Positions 10,119-26,554 of a DNA stretch of 41,969 nucleotides are shown in pieces. Numbering within the stretch: the stretch's first letter is position 1; the number at the start of each line of letters is the position of its first letter. This stretch comes from Bacteroidales bacterium (GTDB lineage: Bacteria; Bacteroidota; Bacteroidia; Bacteroidales; UBA932): positions 1 to 41,969 of the forward strand of contig JAKSKK010000017.1 in the NCBI GenBank assembly GCA_024401745.1, read 5' to 3'. The notes under the pieces are model-generated. The model was given only the letters and a program-made list of their open reading frames with translations. It was not told the origin of the DNA and did no database searches. Both the position numbers and the translations under genes were made by a program.

Positions 10119-10751
10119 TTAATTATTCGATTTGGGAGGGCAAAGGTAATCTTTTCCGATTTCAATTACAAATTTTTCTGCAAAATATTCATCATCAAGC
10201 CACTCGCGTATGGGCCACGTGCCTATGATCGACGGCTTGAGCCTGAACTTCCTGAGGAGTTCGGATATCTCCTCGTTCACATCTCCCCCCTTGAGATACA
10301 GGATTCCTTCCCTGTACTTGCCCTTGACCCAGGGATAGAAGTTGTCAAGTGAGGTGACGGCCCTAGATACCACCCAGTCGAACTGCTCCGGCAGACTCTC
10401 GGCACGAGCGTTCACACAAGTCACGTTCTTAAGTCCAAGACCATCCGCAACTGCCTGTGCCACACGCACTTTCTTCCCTATCGAGTCGCAAAGCACGAAC
10501 TGCGCCTCAGGGTAGACCATCGCCAGAGGAATGCCGGGGAAGCCACCGCCGGTGCCAAGGTCCAGAATCTTTGCACCGGGCCTGAAACCGCCGGATTTTC
10601 TCTCGGCATATTCCGCGATAGCCAGAGAATGCAGCACATGATGCTCATAGATATTGTCTACATCCTTACGCGAAATCACGTTTATCTTTTCGTTCCACTC
10701 ACGCCAGAGCGCCACAGCAGCCTCGAACTGCTTCCTGTCAAATTCAAGCAT
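10119..10751 (-). CDS. rsmG: 16S rRNA (guanine-527-N7) methyltransferase
   Basis: 210 residues. Class I SAM methyltransferase acting on G527 of 16S rRNA in the 530 loop. The SAM-binding block is [17 protein letters not shown] (about 66-82); further family motifs are [14 protein letters not shown] and [15 protein letters not shown]. Length fits the family. It overlaps the glpC stop by 8 bases, so it is probably translated with the glp genes. Its last 25 codons also hold the -33 and -7 boxes of rpmH. Confidence 0.95.
10141..10172 (-). promoter_or_regulatory. rpmH promoter inside the 3' end of rsmG
   Basis: On the minus strand, TTTG (10172-10169), 20 bases, then TACCTTTG (10148-10141): a good match to the Bacteroidota TTTG-N19/20-TAnnTTTG promoter. 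The expected leader to the rpmH ATG is about 28 bases. Confidence 0.75.
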
Positions 10752-11970
10752 TGTTCAATTTCTTTGTCTTTTCAACGTCAATCGCACGGGCCAGCACGCT
10801 GATCGGATTCAGGGTCTCGAGTCCCGTGCCCTGTTCTATCTGCCACTTGCAGGTCTCGCAGTCAGTCACCACGGCATCCGGTGCCACGGTGCTGATGCTT
10901 CCGAAAAGTTTGCTTCCTATCTTCTGCGACAGATTGTAGTTCTCTTTCTTGAAGCCGAAGGTTCCGGCCATTCCACAGCATTCCTGATCAAGGACGACGA
11001 GATCGAGGCCGGGAATCATCCTGAGAAGCCCGATGGAATAGACTGCCCAGCCAAGCTTGCTCATATGGCAGGCCGTATGATATGCCATGCGGGCCTTGAA
11101 GCCGTCCTTGAAGGCCAGCTTCACCGTTCCCTGGTCGACCGCTGAATACAGCCACTTGACGGCCATCTCGATGCGCTCGGAATTGCCGTGCATGTCGAGC
11201 CCGAGAACCTGACTGTACTCGTCCCTGATTGTGAAGGTGCAGGTGGAGGATGTCGTGAGGATGGGGCCCTCGGATGCGTCGAACGCGGCGATGTTCGCCC
11301 TGGCCTGCTTCCTGGCCTGCTTTCCGAAGCCGTTGGAAATCAAGGCCACGCCGCAGCATCTCTCCCCTTCCAGCAGCTTCACTCCGTATCCGCATGCGTT
11401 CATCACCGCAACCAGGTCCTTCGCGAGCTGGGGGCAGTTGTAGTTCGCATAGCAGCCATGGAAATAGTTAAGCTGCCTGTCATACGCGGCCTGCTCTTCC
11501 CTGTGGGCTTCATACCATTGCACGAAGGTCTCGGAGGCATATTCGGGTATGGCCCTGCGCTGGTCTATTCCTACTGCGTTCAGGATGTTGCGTACCGGCT
11601 TGGAGTTTACCAGACCGTTGATTCCCGGGGCAGCCTTGCATGCCAGGGTGCCGGCAAGGTCGGTGCTGGCAAGCGCCATGTCGCGCAGAGGGTGGTTCTG
11701 CCTTGCATACTTAAGGCGCGCAATCTGAATGATGTCGCCCACTTTCACGCCGCTGGGGCATGCGACCTCGCAGCGCTTGCAGTTCAGACAGTACTTGAGC
11801 GTGAGGTCGAAGAAGCGCGGATCCTTGATGCGGTAGCGCTCACCATCAGGTCCGGCCTGCTTGGGACCGGGATATGACGGATTGGCAGCCATCATGGGGC
11901 ATACCGAATTGCAGATCGTGCACTTCAGGCACTGCTCGAAGTTGTTCTCGCTTATATTATGTTCCTGCAT
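10744..11970 (-). CDS. glpC: Anaerobic glycerol-3-phosphate dehydrogenase subunit C
   Basis: 408 residues. Iron-sulfur subunit that passes electrons from GlpAB towards the quinone pool. Two ferredoxin-type clusters are present: CLKCTICNSVCP (Cys14, 17, 20, 24) and CLNCKRCEVACP (Cys61, 64, 67, 71). Two CCG-type domains follow (CCGVALISNGFGKQARKQA and CCGMAGTFGFKKENY), with VVTDCETCKWQIE near the end. It matches the E. coli GlpC layout throughout. The start lies 19 bases inside the glpB reading frame and the end overlaps rsmG by 8 bases. Confidence 0.95.
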   Translation of the reverse strand: MQEHNISENNFEQCLKCTICNSVCPMMAANPSYPGPKQAGPDGERYRIKDPRFFDLTLKYCLNCKRCEVACPSGVKVGDIIQIARLKYARQNHPLRDMALASTDLAGTLACKAAPGINGLVNSKPVRNILNAVGIDQRRAIPEYASETFVQWYEAHREEQAAYDRQLNYFHGCYANYNCPQLAKDLVAVMNACGYGVKLLEGERCCGVALISNGFGKQARKQARANIAAFDASEGPILTTSSTCTFTIRDEYSQVLGLDMHGNSERIEMAVKWLYSAVDQGTVKLAFKDGFKARMAYHTACHMSKLGWAVYSIGLLRMIPGLDLVVLDQECCGMAGTFGFKKENYNLSQKIGSKLFGSISTVAPDAVVTDCETCKWQIEQGTGLETLNPISVLARAIDVEKTKKLNNA

Positions 11971-12500
11971 ACCGCTAATGCTGATTGTTCAATGTCCTTG
12001 CGGTCACATAGTATCTCCCCTGCCGCATAAAGGTTCTCGGCCGCCACGCCATGTATCATCGCGTGCCCGCAGCCGTCAGTCTCCACACCGAATTCCTCAA
12101 AGGGCTGAGGGCCGAAGAAATCAGTGTTCACCCATGCCGAACGGTCTTTGTCGTAACGCACGTCACAGCCGAAGATGGGCTCATATATCTCGTCCATGGT
12201 CGATGCCAGGCCCTTGCTGAAGAAGCGCCCCGTGGCAAGGATGAAATCCTTCGCCTCGATGGGCTCGGAACCAAGATTCCTTGTCCAGACGCGCAGCAGC
12301 CTGCTGCCTTTCCATTCTCCTCGCTTCACGAAATCGCCACGCAGGAACACTCCTCCCGCAGCAATGAACGCGGCGCGCGGCGTCTCATGGAGGCTCATGC
12401 CGCCGGCCACGACCACACAGCGCCTGCCTGCCCTCTGCAGCTCAAGCGCCGCAGTCAGTCCGGCCAGTCCACCGCCGATTATTACTACATCACATCTCAT
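11952..12500 (-). CDS. glpB: Anaerobic glycerol-3-phosphate dehydrogenase subunit B, short form
   Basis: 182 residues, against about 420 in E. coli GlpB. The N-terminal dinucleotide-binding motif is present (VVIIGGGLAGLTAALELQRA, residues 5-24). From about residue 45 the sequence aligns with the C-terminal third of GlpB: GGVFLRGDFV, VWTRN, FILATGRFFSKGL, EPIFGCDV, FFGPQPFEEFGV and ENLYAAGEIL. Roughly 230 internal residues of the E. coli protein have no counterpart. The frame is intact with no frameshift. It sits between glpA (ATGA overlap) and glpC (19-base overlap), which supports the identity. Whether the short form is functional or a family variant cannot be told here. Confidence 0.85.
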   Translation of the reverse strand: MRCDVVIIGGGLAGLTAALELQRAGRRCVVVAGGMSLHETPRAAFIAAGGVFLRGDFVKRGEWKGSRLLRVWTRNLGSEPIEAKDFILATGRFFSKGLASTMDEIYEPIFGCDVRYDKDRSAWVNTDFFGPQPFEEFGVETDGCGHAMIHGVAAENLYAAGEILCDRKDIEQSALAVCRNII

Positions 12501-14047
12501 TTCCTGTACAACTTGCGCATGTATTCCGCCTCACGCAGCGACTCTCCCCAGCAGACCGGGGCTATTCCCTTCCAACGTTCCTGCACATACTGGGCCACCA
12601 GCCTGTCGGCATCCTCGGGCCTGCCGAGTTCCTCGGCCAGCGCAGTCGCCACCTTGCCCATGCAGAACGAGCCCTGGCAGGTTCCCATTCCCACGCGGGT
12701 GCGCCGCCTGAGCTCCACGAGGTTGTGGACGTCGAGGTTCTTGACGGCGTATGCTATCTCAGCACGGGTCACATGCTCGCAGCCGCACAGGACCTCCGAC
12801 TTGCTGTCGAAGTCCATCTGCGACGAGCGGGTGCCGTGCCTCATGGCGGCCGCCTTGCGCGAAAGGTTTCCCTCGGCCGGGAAGAAATCCTTCTCGGAAC
12901 CGGGCAGAGGCTTGTCTGCAGTACGGCACCTGCGGCGTATCTTGAGCTTCTGGCACACCATGTCCGAGACCTGCTCGGCCATGAGCCTGTATGTCGTGAG
13001 CTTGCCGCCGGTGGCAGTGATGAAGCCATGCAGGCCGTCGCTGAGCTCATGGTCTATTATGGTGATGCCGCGGCTTACGCTTCGGCCGGTAGGATCATTG
13101 GACGCCGAATAGAGGGGACGCACTCCGGCGTAGGCCCTCAGCACCCTTGTCTGTGCCAGTATCGGTGCCAGGGCGCAGCCCTCCTGCAGCAGTTCATCCA
13201 CCTCAGCCGAGGTCACCCTGATGTTGTCGCACTCCTCGATGCTCACCTTGGAAGAGGTCGTGCCAAGCACACTCACCACGTCACCGGGCACAAGTATGTC
13301 GGCACTGGCGGGCTTGCGGCAACGGTTCAATGTCATCTTTGCCACTCTGTGGCCGAATATCAGAAGAGAACCCTTCGACGGCAGCAAGGTCAGCGGGACA
13401 TCTGCCATTCCAGCAATCTTCTGCCCCCAGACGCCCGCCGCGTTCACGGTGACGGCAGCGCGCACGGTCACCATCTCGCCGCTGTCCAGCTGCCTCAGAC
13501 GCGCACCCACGATGGATCCGTTCTCCCGCAGCAGCTGCACCACCTCGTGATATGTGAGGATGGTGGCACCGTGCAGACGTGCGTCGACGGCATTCGCCGT
13601 AGCCAGACGGAATGGATCGATGGATGCATCGGGCACCTTTATGGCACCGACGGCCGACTTGTTCAGGGCCGGTTCCAGGCGGATCGCTTCAGCGGGATCG
13701 ATCTCCTTCGCGTCTATGCCCGCTCTATGGCAGGCCTTCATAAGGGTGCCCGCATACCCTACATCGTCGCCCGGAAGGGTTACGAAAAGTCCGCCCGTGG
13801 GCTCCACGCAGTTGGCCGCTATGCGGCGCAGTATCCTGTTCTCCTTTATGCATTCGGCAGCCGAATCCGGGTCCGCCACCGCATAGCGTGCACCGCTGTG
13901 CAGCAGCCCGTGGTTGCGGCCCGTAGCTCCGTTAGTGAGGTCCTGGCGTTCCACAAGAATCGTCCTGAGCCCGCGCATGGCGCAGTCCCTGGCAATTCCG
14001 ACGCCGGTGATGCCGCCGCCTATGATAAGGACGTCGTATTCTTTCAT
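12497..14047 (-). CDS. glpA: Anaerobic glycerol-3-phosphate dehydrogenase subunit A
   Basis: 516 residues. FAD-dependent catalytic subunit oxidising sn-glycerol-3-phosphate to dihydroxyacetone phosphate. The FAD-binding start is VLIIGGGITGVGIARD (6-21). GATGRNHGLLHSGARYA, VNAAGVWGQKIA, YAGVRPLY and ATGGKLTTYRLMAE are DAO-family blocks. The C-terminal BFD-like [2Fe-2S] domain carries CGC and CQGSFC (about 410-450), as in GlpA but not GlpD. It is coupled by ATGA to the sigma-factor gene upstream and to glpB downstream. No glpK, glpF or glpT is in the window. Confidence 0.96.
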   Translation of the reverse strand: MKEYDVLIIGGGITGVGIARDCAMRGLRTILVERQDLTNGATGRNHGLLHSGARYAVADPDSAAECIKENRILRRIAANCVEPTGGLFVTLPGDDVGYAGTLMKACHRAGIDAKEIDPAEAIRLEPALNKSAVGAIKVPDASIDPFRLATANAVDARLHGATILTYHEVVQLLRENGSIVGARLRQLDSGEMVTVRAAVTVNAAGVWGQKIAGMADVPLTLLPSKGSLLIFGHRVAKMTLNRCRKPASADILVPGDVVSVLGTTSSKVSIEECDNIRVTSAEVDELLQEGCALAPILAQTRVLRAYAGVRPLYSASNDPTGRSVSRGITIIDHELSDGLHGFITATGGKLTTYRLMAEQVSDMVCQKLKIRRRCRTADKPLPGSEKDFFPAEGNLSRKAAAMRHGTRSSQMDFDSKSEVLCGCEHVTRAEIAYAVKNLDVHNLVELRRRTRVGMGTCQGSFCMGKVATALAEELGRPEDADRLVAQYVQERWKGIAPVCWGESLREAEYMRKLYRK

Positions 14048-20412: not shown

Positions 20413-20486
20413 TGAGGTATGGTGTAATGGTAGCACTACAGATTTTGGTTCTGTCTGCCCAAGTTCGAATCTTGGTACCTCAACCA
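20413..20486 (+). tRNA. tRNA-Gln (anticodon UUG)
   Basis: 74 bases. The acceptor stem TGAGGTA (20413-20419) pairs with TACCTCA (20476-20482). The discriminator is A20483 and CCA is encoded (20484-20486). The anticodon stem ACAGA/TCTGT encloses the loop TTTTGGT, giving anticodon TTG at 20445-20447. The T-arm carries GTTCGAATC. The D-loop contains GGTAG. Fully intact, with an own promoter and terminator. Confidence 0.97.
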
Positions 20487-20494
20487 GACAGCAG

Positions 20495-20528
20495 GCCCTG
20501 GCACAGCGTTGTGCCGGGGCTGTTTTTT
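20495..20528 (+). terminator. Intrinsic terminator after tRNA-Gln
   Basis: An 11-bp stem (20495-20505 with 20510-20520, one G-U pair) and a GCGT loop are followed by TGTTTTTTAT. It separates the tRNA transcript from the next operon, whose -7 box lies only 16 bases further on. Confidence 0.85.
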
Positions 20529-20543
20529 ATCAGAATTTTTGCC

Positions 20544-20551
20544 TAACTTTG
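20544..20551 (+). promoter_or_regulatory. -7 box of the membrane-protein/NTPase operon
   Basis: TAACTTTG matches TAnnTTTG, 26 bases before the ATG at 20578. The -33 zone coincides with the T-run of the tRNA terminator. It excludes the in-frame upstream start at 20509. Confidence 0.6.
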
Positions 20552-20577
20552 GGAAATATACTGATAATCACACCTAT

Positions 20578-21813
20578 ATGGAACCTGTTGTCAACACTAC
20601 GGCCTTTCTCTGCGGCTACTTCTCCATTGACGGGAAGACAGCCGGACGCATAGACCAGATAATGGACGGATCCGCCTGGGAGAAGCTGGAATACACCAAG
20701 GAAAGCACCGACCTGCTCCGCGATTTCTACTATCCCGAATTCGTGGATTTCTGCACACGGACGCGCAGCTCCTTCAAGCTGGGAATCAATAAAGAAATCA
20801 CTGCCGGCAGCAAGTTCGAGGTAGGTGAGGTCCAGATGGGCTTCTATCCCTTCGGCATCGTGATCTTCCACGTAGGCCTCACGTTCAGGGAAAGCACGCC
20901 GGAACTGGTCCGCAAGACCCTCGGCAAGCTCAGGAACTGCTGCTTTTATGAGAATGCAGGGCTCGACGAGTTCATCGACGCGGTGATCGAGCCGGTCAAG
21001 AAGGTCTACAGTGCCCTCGGCGGCACAGCCGACACATCCGGCGTATCATGCCCCTATCTCGTGGAGAGCGGCAACAAGTTCAAGCTCTTCCAGATAGTCG
21101 AAGGAGAGGCTGTGCCCAAGGATGAAAAAGAGATGGACAGGTTCCTGTACAGCTGCGGAACGCTTGCGGAATATGACGAGAACGCCCTGTACTCGACGAG
21201 CAGGGACTACTATGAGAAATCACTGGCGGAGAGCCGCCTGTCGGTATTCAACAACTGGAAGGCTCTGATGCTGCTGGATTCAGTCACATTTGCCGCGCTG
21301 GAAGTGTCGGACTTCTCGAAGAAGATATGGACCAGCGACTACTTCGGCATGATATATCTATACGAGCTTTACCGCAAGATGTACATGTACGAGCTGAACA
21401 TGCGCTTCCGCAGCGAAAAGGAGAAGGCCTCGAAGCTGTTCGAAGAACTTCAGCTCTTCGAGCGCAAGTATACATTCAGCTCCATCAGCTACAACTTCCT
21501 TCCCAATGAAGTCGACAAGGCAATCGAGAACAATCTGAACACAAGACAGGTGGAGGCCGACATCTACCATGTGATAGACCAGGAGACCACCGCGCAGGCC
21601 GCAGAGCACGAGAGCAGGACCAACCTGTTCCTGACCTTCCTCACCCTGATGGCATCCCTGTCAGCCGTATGGGACATCAGCAGCATGCTGGATGCCATCG
21701 TGAACTACGAGCAGACCTTCAACCTCGCCGCCACGGGATACCGCCTTGTGGTCACTCTGCTTATCGTGGTGATACTTCTTGTCGCACTCTTCTCACGTCG
21801 TAAGAAACACTGA
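20578..21813 (+). CDS. Unknown protein with large soluble domain and two C-terminal membrane helices (CorA-like layout)
   Basis: 411 residues from the ATG at 20578. I do not recognise the family. About 345 soluble residues come first: a mixed alpha/beta part (1-180), then a helical, charged stretch (about 255-345, including RFRSEKEKASKLFEELQLFE). Two hydrophobic helices follow (about 350-368 and 388-406), with a basic tail SRRKKH. This soluble-helical-TM-TM order recalls CorA or RMND1-like membrane proteins, but the GMN ion-channel motif is absent. There is no signal peptide. The NTPase gene starts 2 bases after its stop, so the two are surely co-transcribed. A membrane effector or anchor for the NTPase is a reasonable guess. 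Confidence 0.7.
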   Translation: MEPVVNTTAFLCGYFSIDGKTAGRIDQIMDGSAWEKLEYTKESTDLLRDFYYPEFVDFCTRTRSSFKLGINKEITAGSKFEVGEVQMGFYPFGIVIFHVGLTFRESTPELVRKTLGKLRNCCFYENAGLDEFIDAVIEPVKKVYSALGGTADTSGVSCPYLVESGNKFKLFQIVEGEAVPKDEKEMDRFLYSCGTLAEYDENALYSTSRDYYEKSLAESRLSVFNNWKALMLLDSVTFAALEVSDFSKKIWTSDYFGMIYLYELYRKMYMYELNMRFRSEKEKASKLFEELQLFERKYTFSSISYNFLPNEVDKAIENNLNTRQVEADIYHVIDQETTAQAAEHESRTNLFLTFLTLMASLSAVWDISSMLDAIVNYEQTFNLAATGYRLVVTLLIVVILLVALFSRRKKH

Positions 21814-21815
21814 CC

Positions 21816-24800
21816 ATGGCACTCCCCTACTCCCTGGCACACCCCCTGGAGCAGTTCCAGACGCACAGACAGGCCGGCAGCTGGTCAAAGGCAGCCAACT
21901 ACATGCTCGACTTCCTCGAAGTCAGCAGCCAGTACGTATCCATCGTGCTGCTCGGAAAAATCCGGGATCACGTCCTGGCAGGAGCGTCTCCCGACGAAGC
22001 CTGCGTCAAGGTAGTGAGCAAGATAGACGCCAAGCGGCCTCTCTCGTTCGGCGACTGGTGCAACGACATACTCCCTGTCGTGATGCAGTCGGCCTCGGCC
22101 GCGCTGCCTGACGACCCTGTTGTAATGAGCATATCGGCAGTCATCAACAGGAAGCGCAACATCTTCCTCGGAGGCAAGGGAGAGCAGAGCATGGTACAGG
22201 TCAGGAACGAGTACAAGGGCCATAGCACCACGCTGTCGGAAGCCATCTACAAGGATGTCGTGGAATCTCTGCTACCCCGCCTTGACACCTGGGCCGAAGC
22301 GCTGCAGGCTCTGGAGGATTATGACGGCGAAGCCAGCCTCTACCCTCTCATACACACCGACGAGCAGGGGCACGTATACGTGTTCCAGTCGCTCAAGGAG
22401 GAGAGCGTTTCATTCATATCGGCTGACGAAGACGCCCTGACATACATAGGAGAACGGTACAACAAGGACTTCGATGCCTGGATGCAGGTGCTGGTGCCGT
22501 CCTTCGACATTTCCAAGGACCTCAACTGGGATGAGTACGTGGCTCTCATGCACGGTCTGTGCGACCGCTACATGAAGCGCATCTACGCCCAGAAGAAATA
22601 CAACCGCGAACTCTTCGTGGAGCGCGACGCCCTCTCGGCAGGATTCAGCGCATTCGTCAATTCCGGCAAGAGCATCTTCCCTCTCCTCGGAGAGGCCGGT
22701 CAGGGCAAGACCAACCAGCTCTGCCACTGGACCGAGACCCTGCAGGAAGCCGGGGAGGCCGTGATGATCTTCTCGGGCTCCGACTTTGCCGAGATGACGC
22801 TCAGCGACCAGCTCAGGGAAAGCTTCGGCATCTCCCGCAGGAAACAGATCACCAGACTCACCGAGCCTCTGCAGAAACTTGCCGCCGAGCAGGACAGGAA
22901 GGTCTACGTCTTCTTCGACGCTGTGAACGAGTGCATAGCCTATCCCGGCAAAACAGACGACACTGACGGCCCCCTGATGCTGTTCAGGGAGATATGCGAG
23001 GTGTTCGGGAAGCCCGGATACTCCAACTTCAGGGTCCTCTTCACCTGCCGCAACTATACCTGGCATCAGAGGCTCGCCCCAGAGCTCAGCCGCATGGACA
23101 GTTCAATGTTCTTCAACCGTGGCACCGAAGACGAGATGTCGGTGCGCGGCTTCTCCGATTCCGAGGTCGAGAAGGCCTACGGCATCTACGGGGAACTGTA
23201 CCAGATGGCAACAGGATTCGGCGAGCTCGAGCGAAGCTGCGTGCTGAGGCTCAAGGATCCCCTGCTGCTGAAGATCGCCTGCACCAACTACCTCGGCAAG
23301 GAACTTCCGACCGACAATGCCCAGTACTGCTCAATAGCCATGTGGCGCAGGATGATGCAGGACATCGCATCGTCATACGCCGGACGTCGCCAGAAGGAGA
23401 CCATAGCCGAGATGAGCCGCATACTGCTGGAGCGCTACGAATCCGGCACCCCGGCAGACTCGCTGCTAATGAGTGAGCTGCGCAGGGCTTATTCCTGCCC
23501 TGATGACCCGCAGCACGGCATAGCGTCGCTGATATTCAAGAAAGACGGCACCACCATCGCGTTCGGAGAGCTGCTGAACAAGCCTGAAAGGCCCATACTC
23601 CGCCTCATCGATGGAGAGAAGATCCAGTTCATCTACGAGCGCTTCCTCGAATACCAGATGGCGAGGGCGTACTACGAAAGAGAGGCTGCCGCACTGCCGG
23701 AAGGCGCGAACATCGCGGCCGAGACCATAGTCGGAACCATCCGGAAGGCGGCCATGAACGAAGTGTTCATGGAGACCATGAGCTGCGTGCTCACAATGGA
23801 CTACGCCAATACCGGCAACCCTGAGACCCTCATACGGCTGATACAGGAGTTCGGCGACGACTTCACCGTCCTGACCCTGGTGACCGACGTGATGAACACG
23901 CTCGTGGCCGAGAACTATGAAGAGAAGCTGTTCTCGCTGGAGCGCACCCTCATGACCAGCATGGATCCCGCCACAGCGGCCCTTGTGAAGGAATACAATG
24001 AAGTCTGCAGGAAGATAGGCGCCAACAAGGCCGATTCCGAAGTCATTGCAAGGCACAAGGTGCTTTCGGCAAGCCTCACGCCCTTCATAAGGATGAGAGA
24101 ACTGGCATCATCCACCCTGATAAACGGCGTATTCCTGACTGACTACTGCAACGAGGACCTTTATCGGGAGGACCCCTACAGGCTTTTCGAGCTCCTCATA
24201 GACGAATCCATCTCCGAAGTCAGGGACAACACATGCATGCTCGTCTACTACCTCTTCAACAAGACGCATACGAGCAGCTATTCTCCCCTGAAAGAGAATG
24301 TCACGGAGCGCATCGTACGCAGGATGCTGTCGTCGGTCACGAGGAATCCACTGATGAAGACCGTGGCCGTGAAGAAGGTCCGAGACCGCGCCGTGGCCAT
24401 ACTTGAATCGGGTGTCAGGCTCAACGTACTGATGATCATCGACATGCTCCTGGGCGGAAGGAAAGAGGACAGGGAAAGGATATCCGGGCTGCTTGACGAG
24501 ATAACCGACATATTCAGCTACTTCACCCTGAAGTTCAGGCTGGTGAAGATGCTGATGCCCTTCTTCGACTGGATCATGAGACGCCAGTTCACCTTCCAGT
24601 CGGCATACGTCAACAATGTCATTGAATACCAGACCTTCTGGGATGACAGCGTGGTCCCTGTGCAGGGCTCGGCAGACCGCTGGGGCAGAGACGATTTCCG
24701 CGCACTGGCTCCCTTCATCGGATATTACTCCGACTACTTCTCTCCTGACGCCACAGCCAGCCCCGCAGACGCTCCGGACTTCGGGCCCATGGCTGAGCGT

Positions 24801-25760
24801 GTGCTGCAGGCATATCAGACCGGCGACAGCCTGTCATACTTTGCCCTCGAGAGAATAATGGTCATCATAGCCGTGGCTGACTGGGATGCCGTGCAGCCTC
24901 TGATGGAGCAGCTGCGCTACGGCAGTCTCCGGCAGACCGAATACTTCGACTACACCCAGATGTCCATCATCTACACCCTGTACCAGATGGGCATGAAGAT
25001 GCCACAGATGCCGGACTTCGTGTGGGAGATGCTGGAAGAATGGTGCGTCGACTGGACCAGACGCTGCAGGGGCTATTTCAAGGGACGCAACAGTTTCAAG
25101 GCCAACCCGCTGCAGCTTTACAAGAGGAATGTGATGACCTGGTACGCAATGGTCTACGCCCACAGGCACGGCGATGCCGAAGACGAGACCGGGAAGAGCG
25201 TCCCTGCATTCAGGGCCCTCATTTCGGAGGCTCTCCTGAACAGGGACAAGGAGCTTCTCGTGCATCTCATCAACAACATCTCCGAACTTGTGTCCGACTC
25301 CGGGTACATCAACACCGCACTGGACCTGCTCAAGCAGGTGCTGTCAGGAATAGACAGCCAGGCCGTGCTCGACAGCTTCGAGGCGAATGCCAGCAGCAGA
25401 TACCCCGACACTTCCGAGAGCATCGTGGCCCTGGTCGGCAAGGTCCTCGGTACGGCAAAGAACTACTTCCCCCGCGAAGTCAACCGCTTCATGAAGAAGG
25501 ACGCGCAGGCTCTCACTTTCCCGGGCCTCGCAGGATACAGGGACGAGATACTCGGATTCAACCCTGGCGGTGAGAAGCTTTCCGACCTGTTCACTCACAA
25601 GTTCGGCAACTTCGTGATATGGTCGCTCATCAACGAGAAGGCGGTGAACGAAGTTGCTGGAGAAGTGCTGGATGCGGCAGCCGCTGCACCGGACAGCATC
25701 AAATGGTTCGACAGGACCATACGCATAGTATTCAGACGCATGTTCAAGATCAAGATATGA
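21816..25760 (+). CDS. Large NACHT/STAND-type NTPase, possible anti-phage or stress sensor
   Basis: 1314 residues. N-terminal helical domain (1-170) with RNEYKGH (Arg130, His136), similar to the Rx4-6H motif of HEPN domains; then about 100 unassigned residues. The NTPase core has Walker A GEAGQGKT (292-299), Walker B KVYVFFDAVNE (362-372) with the DAxxE pattern of NACHT proteins, a sensor arginine in VLFTCR (412) and the NACHT-like DPLLLKIACT (481-490). About 750 residues follow, rich in helix-forming segments and fitting a helical-repeat sensor, but without a repeat I can define. No membrane helix or signal peptide. GC content and codon use look like the neighbours. It is flanked by a two-helix membrane protein (2 bases upstream) and a GDPD gene (ATGA overlap). 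Confidence 0.8.
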   Translation: MALPYSLAHPLEQFQTHRQAGSWSKAANYMLDFLEVSSQYVSIVLLGKIRDHVLAGASPDEACVKVVSKIDAKRPLSFGDWCNDILPVVMQSASAALPDDPVVMSISAVINRKRNIFLGGKGEQSMVQVRNEYKGHSTTLSEAIYKDVVESLLPRLDTWAEALQALEDYDGEASLYPLIHTDEQGHVYVFQSLKEESVSFISADEDALTYIGERYNKDFDAWMQVLVPSFDISKDLNWDEYVALMHGLCDRYMKRIYAQKKYNRELFVERDALSAGFSAFVNSGKSIFPLLGEAGQGKTNQLCHWTETLQEAGEAVMIFSGSDFAEMTLSDQLRESFGISRRKQITRLTEPLQKLAAEQDRKVYVFFDAVNECIAYPGKTDDTDGPLMLFREICEVFGKPGYSNFRVLFTCRNYTWHQRLAPELSRMDSSMFFNRGTEDEMSVRGFSDSEVEKAYGIYGELYQMATGFGELERSCVLRLKDPLLLKIACTNYLGKELPTDNAQYCSIAMWRRMMQDIASSYAGRRQKETIAEMSRILLERYESGTPADSLLMSELRRAYSCPDDPQHGIASLIFKKDGTTIAFGELLNKPERPILRLIDGEKIQFIYERFLEYQMARAYYEREAAALPEGANIAAETIVGTIRKAAMNEVFMETMSCVLTMDYANTGNPETLIRLIQEFGDDFTVLTLVTDVMNTLVAENYEEKLFSLERTLMTSMDPATAALVKEYNEVCRKIGANKADSEVIARHKVLSASLTPFIRMRELASSTLINGVFLTDYCNEDLYREDPYRLFELLIDESISEVRDNTCMLVYYLFNKTHTSSYSPLKENVTERIVRRMLSSVTRNPLMKTVAVKKVRDRAVAILESGVRLNVLMIIDMLLGGRKEDRERISGLLDEITDIFSYFTLKFRLVKMLMPFFDWIMRRQFTFQSAYVNNVIEYQTFWDDSVVPVQGSADRWGRDDFRALAPFIGYYSDYFSPDATASPADAPDFGPMAERVLQAYQTGDSLSYFALERIMVIIAVADWDAVQPLMEQLRYGSLRQTEYFDYTQMSIIYTLYQMGMKMPQMPDFVWEMLEEWCVDWTRRCRGYFKGRNSFKANPLQLYKRNVMTWYAMVYAHRHGDAEDETGKSVPAFRALISEALLNRDKELLVHLINNISELVSDSGYINTALDLLKQVLSGIDSQAVLDSFEANASSRYPDTSESIVALVGKVLGTAKNYFPREVNRFMKKDAQALTFPGLAGYRDEILGFNPGGEKLSDLFTHKFGNFVIWSLINEKAVNEVAGEVLDAAAAAPDSIKWFDRTIRIVFRRMFKIKI

Positions 25761-26554
25761 AGAAACTGATATTGGCACTGGCAGTTCTTTCAAGTGTCAG
25801 CTGCAGTTCACAGAATGGAGGGAACACAGACATGAAGATAGTAGCACATAGAGGAGGAGCCCTGATCGGGAATGAGAACACCCTGTCAGCCTTCAGCAAA
25901 GGACTGGAGGCAGGGGCTGACATGATAGAGCTGGACGTCCACCTGACATCTGACGGAGCAGTCGTGGTCTGCCATGACGACAGCATAGACCGCACCACCG
26001 ACGGCAAAGGCAGGATAGAAGACATGACACTGGATCAGTTCAAGAGCGCAAAGGCACTTGACAGAGAGTCCGGCCAGCCTACCGAGGAGCCGCTCCCCAC
26101 TCTGGAAGAAGCACTCGACCTTATTCATGGCAAGGCAGGGATCCTGCTGGAAATCAAGAAGTTTCACAAGGGCCAGTACGAAGGTATCGAGCAGAAGGTC
26201 CTTGATCTTGTCAATGCCAAGGGCATGCATGACGACGTGACCCTGCAGTCCTTTGACGACAGCATCCTAAGAAAGATTCATGAACTTGATCCGGGCATGA
26301 GAATCGAGAAGCTGATAATATGCCGCCCGCTCCCCGGGCTCTGCATCGACAACGGCCTCAGCACATTCTCATTCAGGAAATACGACTTCTGCGCATCCAT
26401 CAATTCCATGCGCGCACTCACTTCAAGACATTTCGTAAAGAAGTGCCACAAGGCAGGCAAGGAGATCAAGATATGGACCGTCAACTCCCCCGACAAGGTC
26501 ATACCGGGAGTGGACGCCGTGATCAGCAACCGTCCGGACCTGTTCAGGAAATAG
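25757..26554 (+). CDS. Glycerophosphodiester phosphodiesterase, probable lipoprotein
   Basis: 265 residues from the ATG at 25757, which overlaps the NTPase stop as ATGA. It hydrolyses glycerophosphodiesters to glycerol-3-phosphate plus an alcohol, presumably in the envelope. The N-terminus MKKLILALAVLSSVSCSSQ looks like a lipoprotein signal with Cys16, although the lipobox is weak (Ser at -3). Catalytic motifs: HRGG (His31), ENT (Glu40), ELD (Glu58, Asp60) and CHDD (His73), all in a TIM-barrel family. Its product would feed the GlpABC system elsewhere in the window. It may belong to the NTPase operon only by position. The stop overlaps the convergent msrA-proX gene by 11 bases. Confidence 0.9.
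   Translation: MKKLILALAVLSSVSCSSQNGGNTDMKIVAHRGGALIGNENTLSAFSKGLEAGADMIELDVHLTSDGAVVVCHDDSIDRTTDGKGRIEDMTLDQFKSAKALDRESGQPTEEPLPTLEEALDLIHGKAGILLEIKKFHKGQYEGIEQKVLDLVNAKGMHDDVTLQSFDDSILRKIHELDPGMRIEKLIICRPLPGLCIDNGLSTFSFRKYDFCASINSMRALTSRHFVKKCHKAGKEIKIWTVNSPDKVIPGVDAVISNRPDLFRK

Follow-up and report, generated by a model that had tools for sequence, protein, structure and literature searches.

The window analysed here, the whole stretch of 41,969 nucleotides of contig JAKSKK010000017.1 from a Bacteroidales bacterium, contains a module of three adjacent genes that encode, in order, a membrane protein with two C-terminal membrane segments (hereafter the 2TM protein), a large NACHT/STAND NTPase and a glycerophosphodiester phosphodiesterase (GDPD). 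The reading that we favour, with confidence and doubt about evenly balanced, is that these genes form a three-component, STAND-regulated and membrane-targeting immune or controlled-death (suicide) module equipped with a lipid-phosphodiester enzyme. The initial annotation of this region had proposed a sensor/effector system made of the first two genes. Its coordinates, both protein lengths (411 and 1314 residues) and the 2-base gap between the genes (20578-21813 and 21816-25760) are exact on the listing of open reading frames and their translation, and the two genes do belong together; however, the unit is larger, as the GDPD gene (25757-26554), which overlaps the STAND stop codon by 4 bases, had been left out. 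The features of the module are:

20578..21813 (+), 2TM membrane protein, 411 residues: soluble N-terminal part, two C-terminal membrane segments, no GMN motif
21625..21681 (+), membrane segment 1, predicted at residues 350-368, a marginal case with a mean hydropathy of 1.61
21736..21792 (+), membrane segment 2, predicted at residues 387-405, mean hydropathy 2.66, with a basic tail after it
21816..25760 (+), NACHT/STAND NTPase, 1314 residues: N-terminal domain, NACHT, long C-terminal region
22203..22223 (+), RN.Y.GH motif (residues 130-136), like that of HEPN RNases (R-x5-H, with N after R)
22689..22712 (+), Walker A, GEAGQGKT (residues 292-299)
22917..22931 (+), Walker B, DAVNE (residues 368-372)
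24456..25757 (+), C-terminal presumed sensor region (residues 881-1314)
25757..26554 (+), GDPD, 265 residues, with an N-terminus that by eye resembles that of a lipoprotein

Linkage, co-divergence and distribution of the three genes

A profile of four STAND proteins, searched against a collection of species genomes, recovered 31 related loci, 30 from Bacteroidota and one from a metagenome-assembled genome (MAG) of Chlorobiota; three of them (L030, L040 and L049 in our numbering of loci) are the genomes of the other three seed proteins and match by construction. A GDPD gene lies on the same strand at most 87 bases downstream of the STAND gene in 29 of the 31 loci, and in 18 of those 29 the two overlap when their starts are chosen by script. 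The exceptions are L030, where a gene resembling trpS by eye stands in its place, and L046, whose contig ends in the STAND gene. The initial annotation had named mostly unlinked homologues as the outcome that would speak against the pairing; this did not occur, the 2TM gene being found within 1.4 kb of the STAND gene in 27 of the 31 loci. The linked 2TM gene is upstream and divergent in 24 cases, upstream and co-directional in two and downstream in one; in L049 a small gene separates the co-directional 2TM and STAND genes, and in L040 the 2TM gene lies downstream, beyond the GDPD and a small gene. Thus, the arrangement in the window is the rarer one and the linkage has outlived rearrangement. 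Of the four genomes whose locus lacks a linked 2TM gene, three (G430, G431 and G432) proved on a search of the whole genome to have one elsewhere. The 31 loci form 15 context groups, each defined by at least one shared homologous gene among up to three per side, with some flanks being short.

The three genes have also diverged together. In a set of 18 representatives that possess all three, the correlation of pairwise distances is 0.93 for STAND and 2TM, 0.91 for STAND and GDPD and 0.86 for 2TM and GDPD, and none of 2000 permutations of the distance matrices was as high; these correlations include shared species history, and L037, with its split STAND gene, was omitted from the Mantel test. 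Given the linkage through rearrangement, the co-occurrence in three of the four unlinked cases and the correlated divergence, we regard the genes as one working unit of three. All three are under purifying selection in seven pairs of relatives, with ratios of nonsynonymous to synonymous divergence (dN/dS) of 0.025-0.214 that are rough, as some dS values exceed 1; window/L020, the one pair to include the window, is saturated and gives no dN/dS value. In the pair L025/L026 the dS of the 2TM gene (1.20) is far above those of STAND (0.20) and GDPD (0.06), hence exchange of the 2TM gene alone is probable.

The module is patchily distributed. Within the window's genus the STAND gene is present in 6 of 121 genomes (2 of the 53 near-complete ones); four of these six carriers have a linked 2TM gene (the window, G032, G464, which is the genome of L022, and G485, that of L020) and five have the GDPD, the exception being G032. 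Among 393 sampled genomes of the order a full STAND protein was found in three, all with the 2TM gene; 20 of the 23 order genomes with a STAND match remained uncounted because only profile positions 280-548 matched. The 2TM protein gave a match in nine of the same 393 genomes, of which one (G212) was dropped, being 69 residues of a protein that by eye looks like TolC. Of 395 sampled genomes of the phylum, three gave a 2TM match, including the window's own and a weak one.

The STAND NTPase and its N-terminal domain

The motifs that the initial annotation had picked out in the large protein, namely a NACHT-type Walker A, a DAxxE Walker B and a DPLLL motif, are kept throughout the family, and a comparison over 32 STAND proteins, the window's included, showed that: 1) Walker A of the form G.AG.GKT is present in 31, the exception being L037, in which the gene is split. 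2) The [DN]P[LM].LK motif, DPLLLK in the window, is present in the same 31. 3) The DA.NE form of Walker B occurs in all 32. 4) A T[CI]R[NST]YTW motif likewise occurs in all 32. With its Walker A, DAxxE and conserved downstream arginine and proline, the protein is by sequence a member of the STAND/NACHT NTPases. In L037 (1831-5886) the STAND gene is split into two open frames with the break near Walker A; this is a MAG and a sequencing error is possible. Another relative, L049:5737-10152 (also recorded as L013), carries an N-terminal sterile alpha motif (SAM) domain (Pfam E 1.4e-11).

Pfam NACHT matches 20 of 24 STAND members at E<=0.1 (best 4.5e-11), and the window protein stays below its cut-off (15.4 vs 26.7 bits). 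The PADLOC Avs2 models match all 24 members (best E 4.6e-17), in the window only over approximately residues 287-426, which is the NTPase, and the best match of known structure is also Avs2 (PDB 9o4e, E 2.1e-4), again over the NTPase. The NCBIfam Avs2 model gives the window protein 20.9 bits against a cut-off of 1000; the protein is therefore Avs2-like in its NTPase and not an Avs2. The description of the large protein as a NACHT/STAND NTPase stands, and can be refined to a STAND NTPase that is nearest to the anti-phage Avs2 and falls below the Pfam and NCBIfam cut-offs. The long C-terminal region probably consists of helical repeats.

The N-terminal domain displays an R130-N131-x-Y133-x-G135-H136 motif in all 32 STAND proteins. 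This conforms to the definition of the HEPN motif, Rx4-6H with a polar residue after the arginine, in the accessible part of Anantharaman et al. 2013 (PMC3710099), where bacterial STAND NTPases with a HEPN RNase at their N-terminus are also described, and suggests that the domain is a putative RNase. No HEPN family is among the 25 of 32 matched Pfam families listed for 24 STAND members. A profile of the N-terminal domain matches 3 of 345 genomes of the class, these being the window's own and two distant ones that keep RN.Y.GH before other NTPases. In L162 the domain precedes an NTPase with tetratricopeptide repeats (TPRs), and in L163 (5351-7846) two tandem copies precede an NTPase-like domain (Pfam AAA_22, below the cut-off). 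A 2TM gene is situated 4 kb from this tandem protein, and several near-repeated genes lie downstream, one of which was tested and is rich in TPRs.

The 2TM protein and the GDPD

The two C-terminal membrane helices previously assigned to the first gene product are present, the first of them being marginal: among relatives, the hydropathy threshold is passed by the second segment in all 27 and by the first in 16, with the other 11 narrowly below it (1.32-1.59). The first segment bears a conserved S-[AT]-x-[WYT]..D motif, and the middle region of the protein looks helical by eye. The initial annotation could match the protein to no named defence family; it stays below every curated cut-off of Pfam and NCBIfam, Pfam gives nothing for it at E<=1, and PDB sequences contain no relative at E<=5. 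A weak PADLOC CorA match (E 2e-4 for the window; 18 of 23 aligned members, best E 4e-7) made CorA a candidate, which failed on the GMN motif that closes the first membrane helix of CorA, found in 0 of 28 2TM proteins, and on profile comparison. At E<=0.1 the CorA profile PF01544 detects one of 23 members, with E 0.036, and hhalign gives the 2TM family 0.1% against 15 canonical CorA sequences, picked for having GMN, and 1.1% against Cas-CorA, a set of just two sequences matching the PADLOC CorA model over their full length (L061, with an interrupted frame, was omitted), compared to 94% for the positive control of canonical CorA against the Cas-CorA set. The CorA-like layout noted earlier is thus unsupported by sequence kinship with CorA, and filing the protein as a CorA is unjustified; as the comparison sets are small, a very remote kinship is conceivable.

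The same family has a second association. Five genomes of the order with a 2TM match and without a full STAND protein (L014-L018) combine the 2TM gene with a protein of approximately 200 residues and a TPR-SpoIIE phosphatase in an apparent second module, the phosphatase being assigned by Pfam in three of the five and alike by eye in the other two. Profile comparison of the 2TM groups found with STAND and with TPR-SpoIIE gives 100% (E 6e-57), which places them in one family. In L017 this module shows a fusion to the TPR-SpoIIE phosphatase, and some of the L014-L018 loci have genes nearby that resemble STAND NTPases by eye. The unnamed family of approximately 200 residues, which yielded no Pfam match for the two proteins run, is absent from the window module; it adjoins the 2TM gene in L040 (4911-5504), L049 (5134-5709), L056, L058 and L164. 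DUF350-like membrane proteins are encoded near 2TM or approximately 200-residue family genes in two distant genomes (L162:760-1257 and L164:15239-15748), with Pfam run for L164 only and the match there below the cut-off.

The window GDPD is recognized by Pfam PF03009 (E 4.4e-41, 142 bits vs a cut-off of 23.6). The HRG, ExD and HD motifs are kept in all 30 module GDPDs, with 26 invariant positions, and on this account the enzyme looks catalytically competent. The N-terminal extension before HRG is long in 19 of the 30, short and hydrophobic in eight and absent in three; because of these extensions most copies, the three aside, look exported or anchored. Some of the long extensions resemble lipoproteins and others membrane anchors. 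Membrane-anchor-like N-termini are seen for instance in L035, L039 and G021 (the extension of the last being hydrophobic), and a strict lipobox pattern matches only L020, L043 and L047, the lipoprotein look of the window protein being a judgement by eye. In a tree of the 30 module and 29 other GDPDs the module label changes three times, against a shuffled mean of 19.9, and none of 500 shuffles was as low; the background comprises 29 of a longer list, ten of which fill under half of the columns, and the mixture of long and short rows leaves parts of the tree unsure.

Genomic surroundings of the module

The upstream flank contains:

20413-20486, tRNA-Gln, upstream of the hairpin and the module
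20494..20521 (+), terminator-like hairpin after tRNA-Gln, an upstream neighbour outside the module that separates it from upstream genes
20539..20568 (+), promoter-like site ahead of the 2TM gene, by consensus match only
20544-20551, the stretch TAACTTTG inside the promoter-like site

TAACTTTG resembles the Bacteroidales -7 element and is a candidate for such an element. At its other end the module abuts a convergent gene resembling msrA/B, named by eye. Approximately 6.5 kb upstream of the module, at 10744-14047, are glpC-like and glpA-like genes (named by eye; glycerol-3-phosphate oxidation), which would constitute the product path of the GDPD; this is probably a coincidence. In 8 of the 22 genomes with an EttA match, which were examined, no other window neighbour is present in the stretches taken, and no empty site can therefore be read at the window locus.

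Functional interpretation

The type of the NTPase together with its RN.Y.GH motif argues for an alarm-and-effector mechanism, and both the 2TM and the GDPD genes point to the membrane as the target. We infer the trigger, the activation steps and the enzyme substrates as follows. The C-terminal region of the STAND protein would sense a conserved trigger, whereupon the protein, by analogy with its family, would oligomerise through NACHT on ATP. This might switch on the N-terminal HEPN-like domain, the putative RNase, and/or the partner 2TM protein, which once activated would perturb the inner membrane. At the membrane the GDPD may cleave lipid phosphodiester head groups, or what lipid breakdown leaves of them, and could thereby either add to the membrane damage or clear its products. 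The proposed anti-phage role is likewise a suggestion from sequence.

Several observations weigh against this interpretation. The PADLOC scan of the ten nearest genes of the window locus revealed no convincing defence gene: six have no match, and four match only as apparent housekeeping proteins (PolA, a deaminase and two ABC-F ATPases, named by eye), so that of the neighbourhood survey suggested initially the conserved pairing was borne out, and the association with defence genes was not, as far as these ten window genes show. The STAND gene has no match in plasmid and phage records, the 2TM protein none in plasmid records, and neither the 2TM protein nor a STAND alignment query found a relative in IMG/VR viral contigs. 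The presumed sensor region is as conserved as the NTPase rather than hypervariable (54 of 434 positions invariant over 22 STAND sequences in residues 881-1314, vs 24 of 190 in residues 271-460), and this and the low dN/dS are unlike a fast arms race. Taken together, these neighbours, the missing plasmid and phage matches, the conserved sensor and the low dN/dS speak against a classical phage-defence system. The unity of the three genes also has exceptions: L030 keeps STAND and 2TM without a GDPD; the whole-genome search of G429, the genome of L021, found no 2TM gene; in G021 and G504 the STAND start borders the end of its contig, and a 2TM gene was not found in the rest of the genome; and the unlinked 2TM genes could serve another regulator. 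The location of the GDPD is not uniform, L022, L036 and L044 being the three copies without an N-terminal extension. The module GDPDs are not one exclusive clade either, as two background rows sit in the branch (support 93/85) that contains all 30. One of these, L124, in fact belongs to the module of G021, its gene being divided between two overlapping contigs, and the other, L110 (from G051), is a same-clade GDPD without STAND or 2TM by profile. Finally, the loci share ancestry, and the linkage and Mantel counts are non-independent.

Many of these points would fit an envelope-stress or phospholipid-homeostasis switch, a possible though doubtful alternative in which the STAND protein would sense a cue from the host cell, membrane damage for example, and tune the 2TM protein and the GDPD to remodel lipids, with no anti-phage role. 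The housekeeping-like neighbours of the window module, the conserved sensor region with low dN/dS, and the context shared within several locus groups count in its favour, as does the association of this 2TM family with TPR-SpoIIE phosphatases, which are partners of a regulatory and not of an immune kind. GDPD feeds glycerol-3-phosphate metabolism, which is also in keeping with such a switch. Yet, the restriction to 6 of 121 genomes of the genus and the spread over 15 context groups would be odd for a homeostatic device, the NACHT domain is nearest to that of an immune NTPase, and the universal RN.Y.GH motif suggests a damaging effector. The original proposal of a two-gene STAND/2TM system, with the GDPD as a co-transcribed passenger, is unlikely: L030 would be explained by it, and GDPDs are frequent in the genomes concerned, 41 relatives having 0 to 11 matches each, but a GDPD in 29 of 31 loci with 18 overlapping the STAND stop, its clustering apart from other GDPDs, its distance correlation with STAND and its intact catalytic motifs all speak against it. 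Least probable, to the point of being improbable, is a reading of the 2TM protein as an ion channel of the CorA type, similar to CorA of type III CRISPR systems and gated by a signal that a phosphodiesterase must clear. Such a channel would agree with the PADLOC CorA matches and the similar layout, and, according to the accessible part of PMC12255297, CorA immunity in type III CRISPR needs a phosphodiesterase, NrN. Against it stand the missing GMN motif, the hhalign values so far below the control, and the N-terminal extension of most module GDPDs, which suggests export or anchoring; no signal synthase was noticed, none having been searched for. The GDPD is not known to be related to NrN.

Extending the favoured three-component reading, we tentatively envisage an NLR-like module that attacks or remodels membrane lipids, in which the STAND protein would license a new family of 2TM effectors along with a dedicated GDPD. 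The 2TM family, often with its approximately 200-residue partner, might then be an interchangeable membrane executioner, re-wired elsewhere to TPR-SpoIIE phosphatases. If so, the known effectors of bacterial NLR-like proteins would come to include a lipid-phosphodiester enzyme, and a membrane-protein family common to two unrelated regulators would be defined. More generally, conserved linkage can reveal systems outside defence islands, and the three genes provide a compact set for testing.

Relationship to known systems

Searches of the open PMC literature, with subscription papers outside their reach, listed no paper describing a three-gene STAND/2TM/GDPD set, and comparable systems share parts of it. 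The nearest is Avs2 (AVAST type 2, an anti-phage STAND protein), with which the module shares the NACHT/STAND NTPase core seen in the PADLOC and PDB matches; it differs in that the match of the window protein is limited to the NTPase, far below the full-length model, and in the two partner genes of the window STAND. The HEPN-STAND proteins, as far as the accessible text of PMC3710099 describes them, share R-x5-H with an asparagine after the arginine, N-terminal to the NTPase; the window protein has membrane and GDPD partners in addition, and the likeness is one of motif. The type III CRISPR CorA/NrN pair in the part of PMC12255297 available likewise combines a membrane protein with two C-terminal helices and a phosphodiesterase, whereas the 2TM protein lacks GMN and profile kinship, and no CRISPR genes are among the PADLOC matches of the ten nearest genes, no systematic CRISPR search having been made. 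The DS-8 metallophosphatase-NACHT system of DefensePredictor, in the accessible portion of PMC13092281, also unites NACHT with a phosphodiesterase-type enzyme; it differs in being one protein with another enzyme class, and that portion mentions no membrane partner. Lastly, the SLATT 2TM effectors of NTP-dependent conflict systems, likened here by their description in the available part of PMC7159879, share with the module a two-helix membrane protein beside an NTPase.

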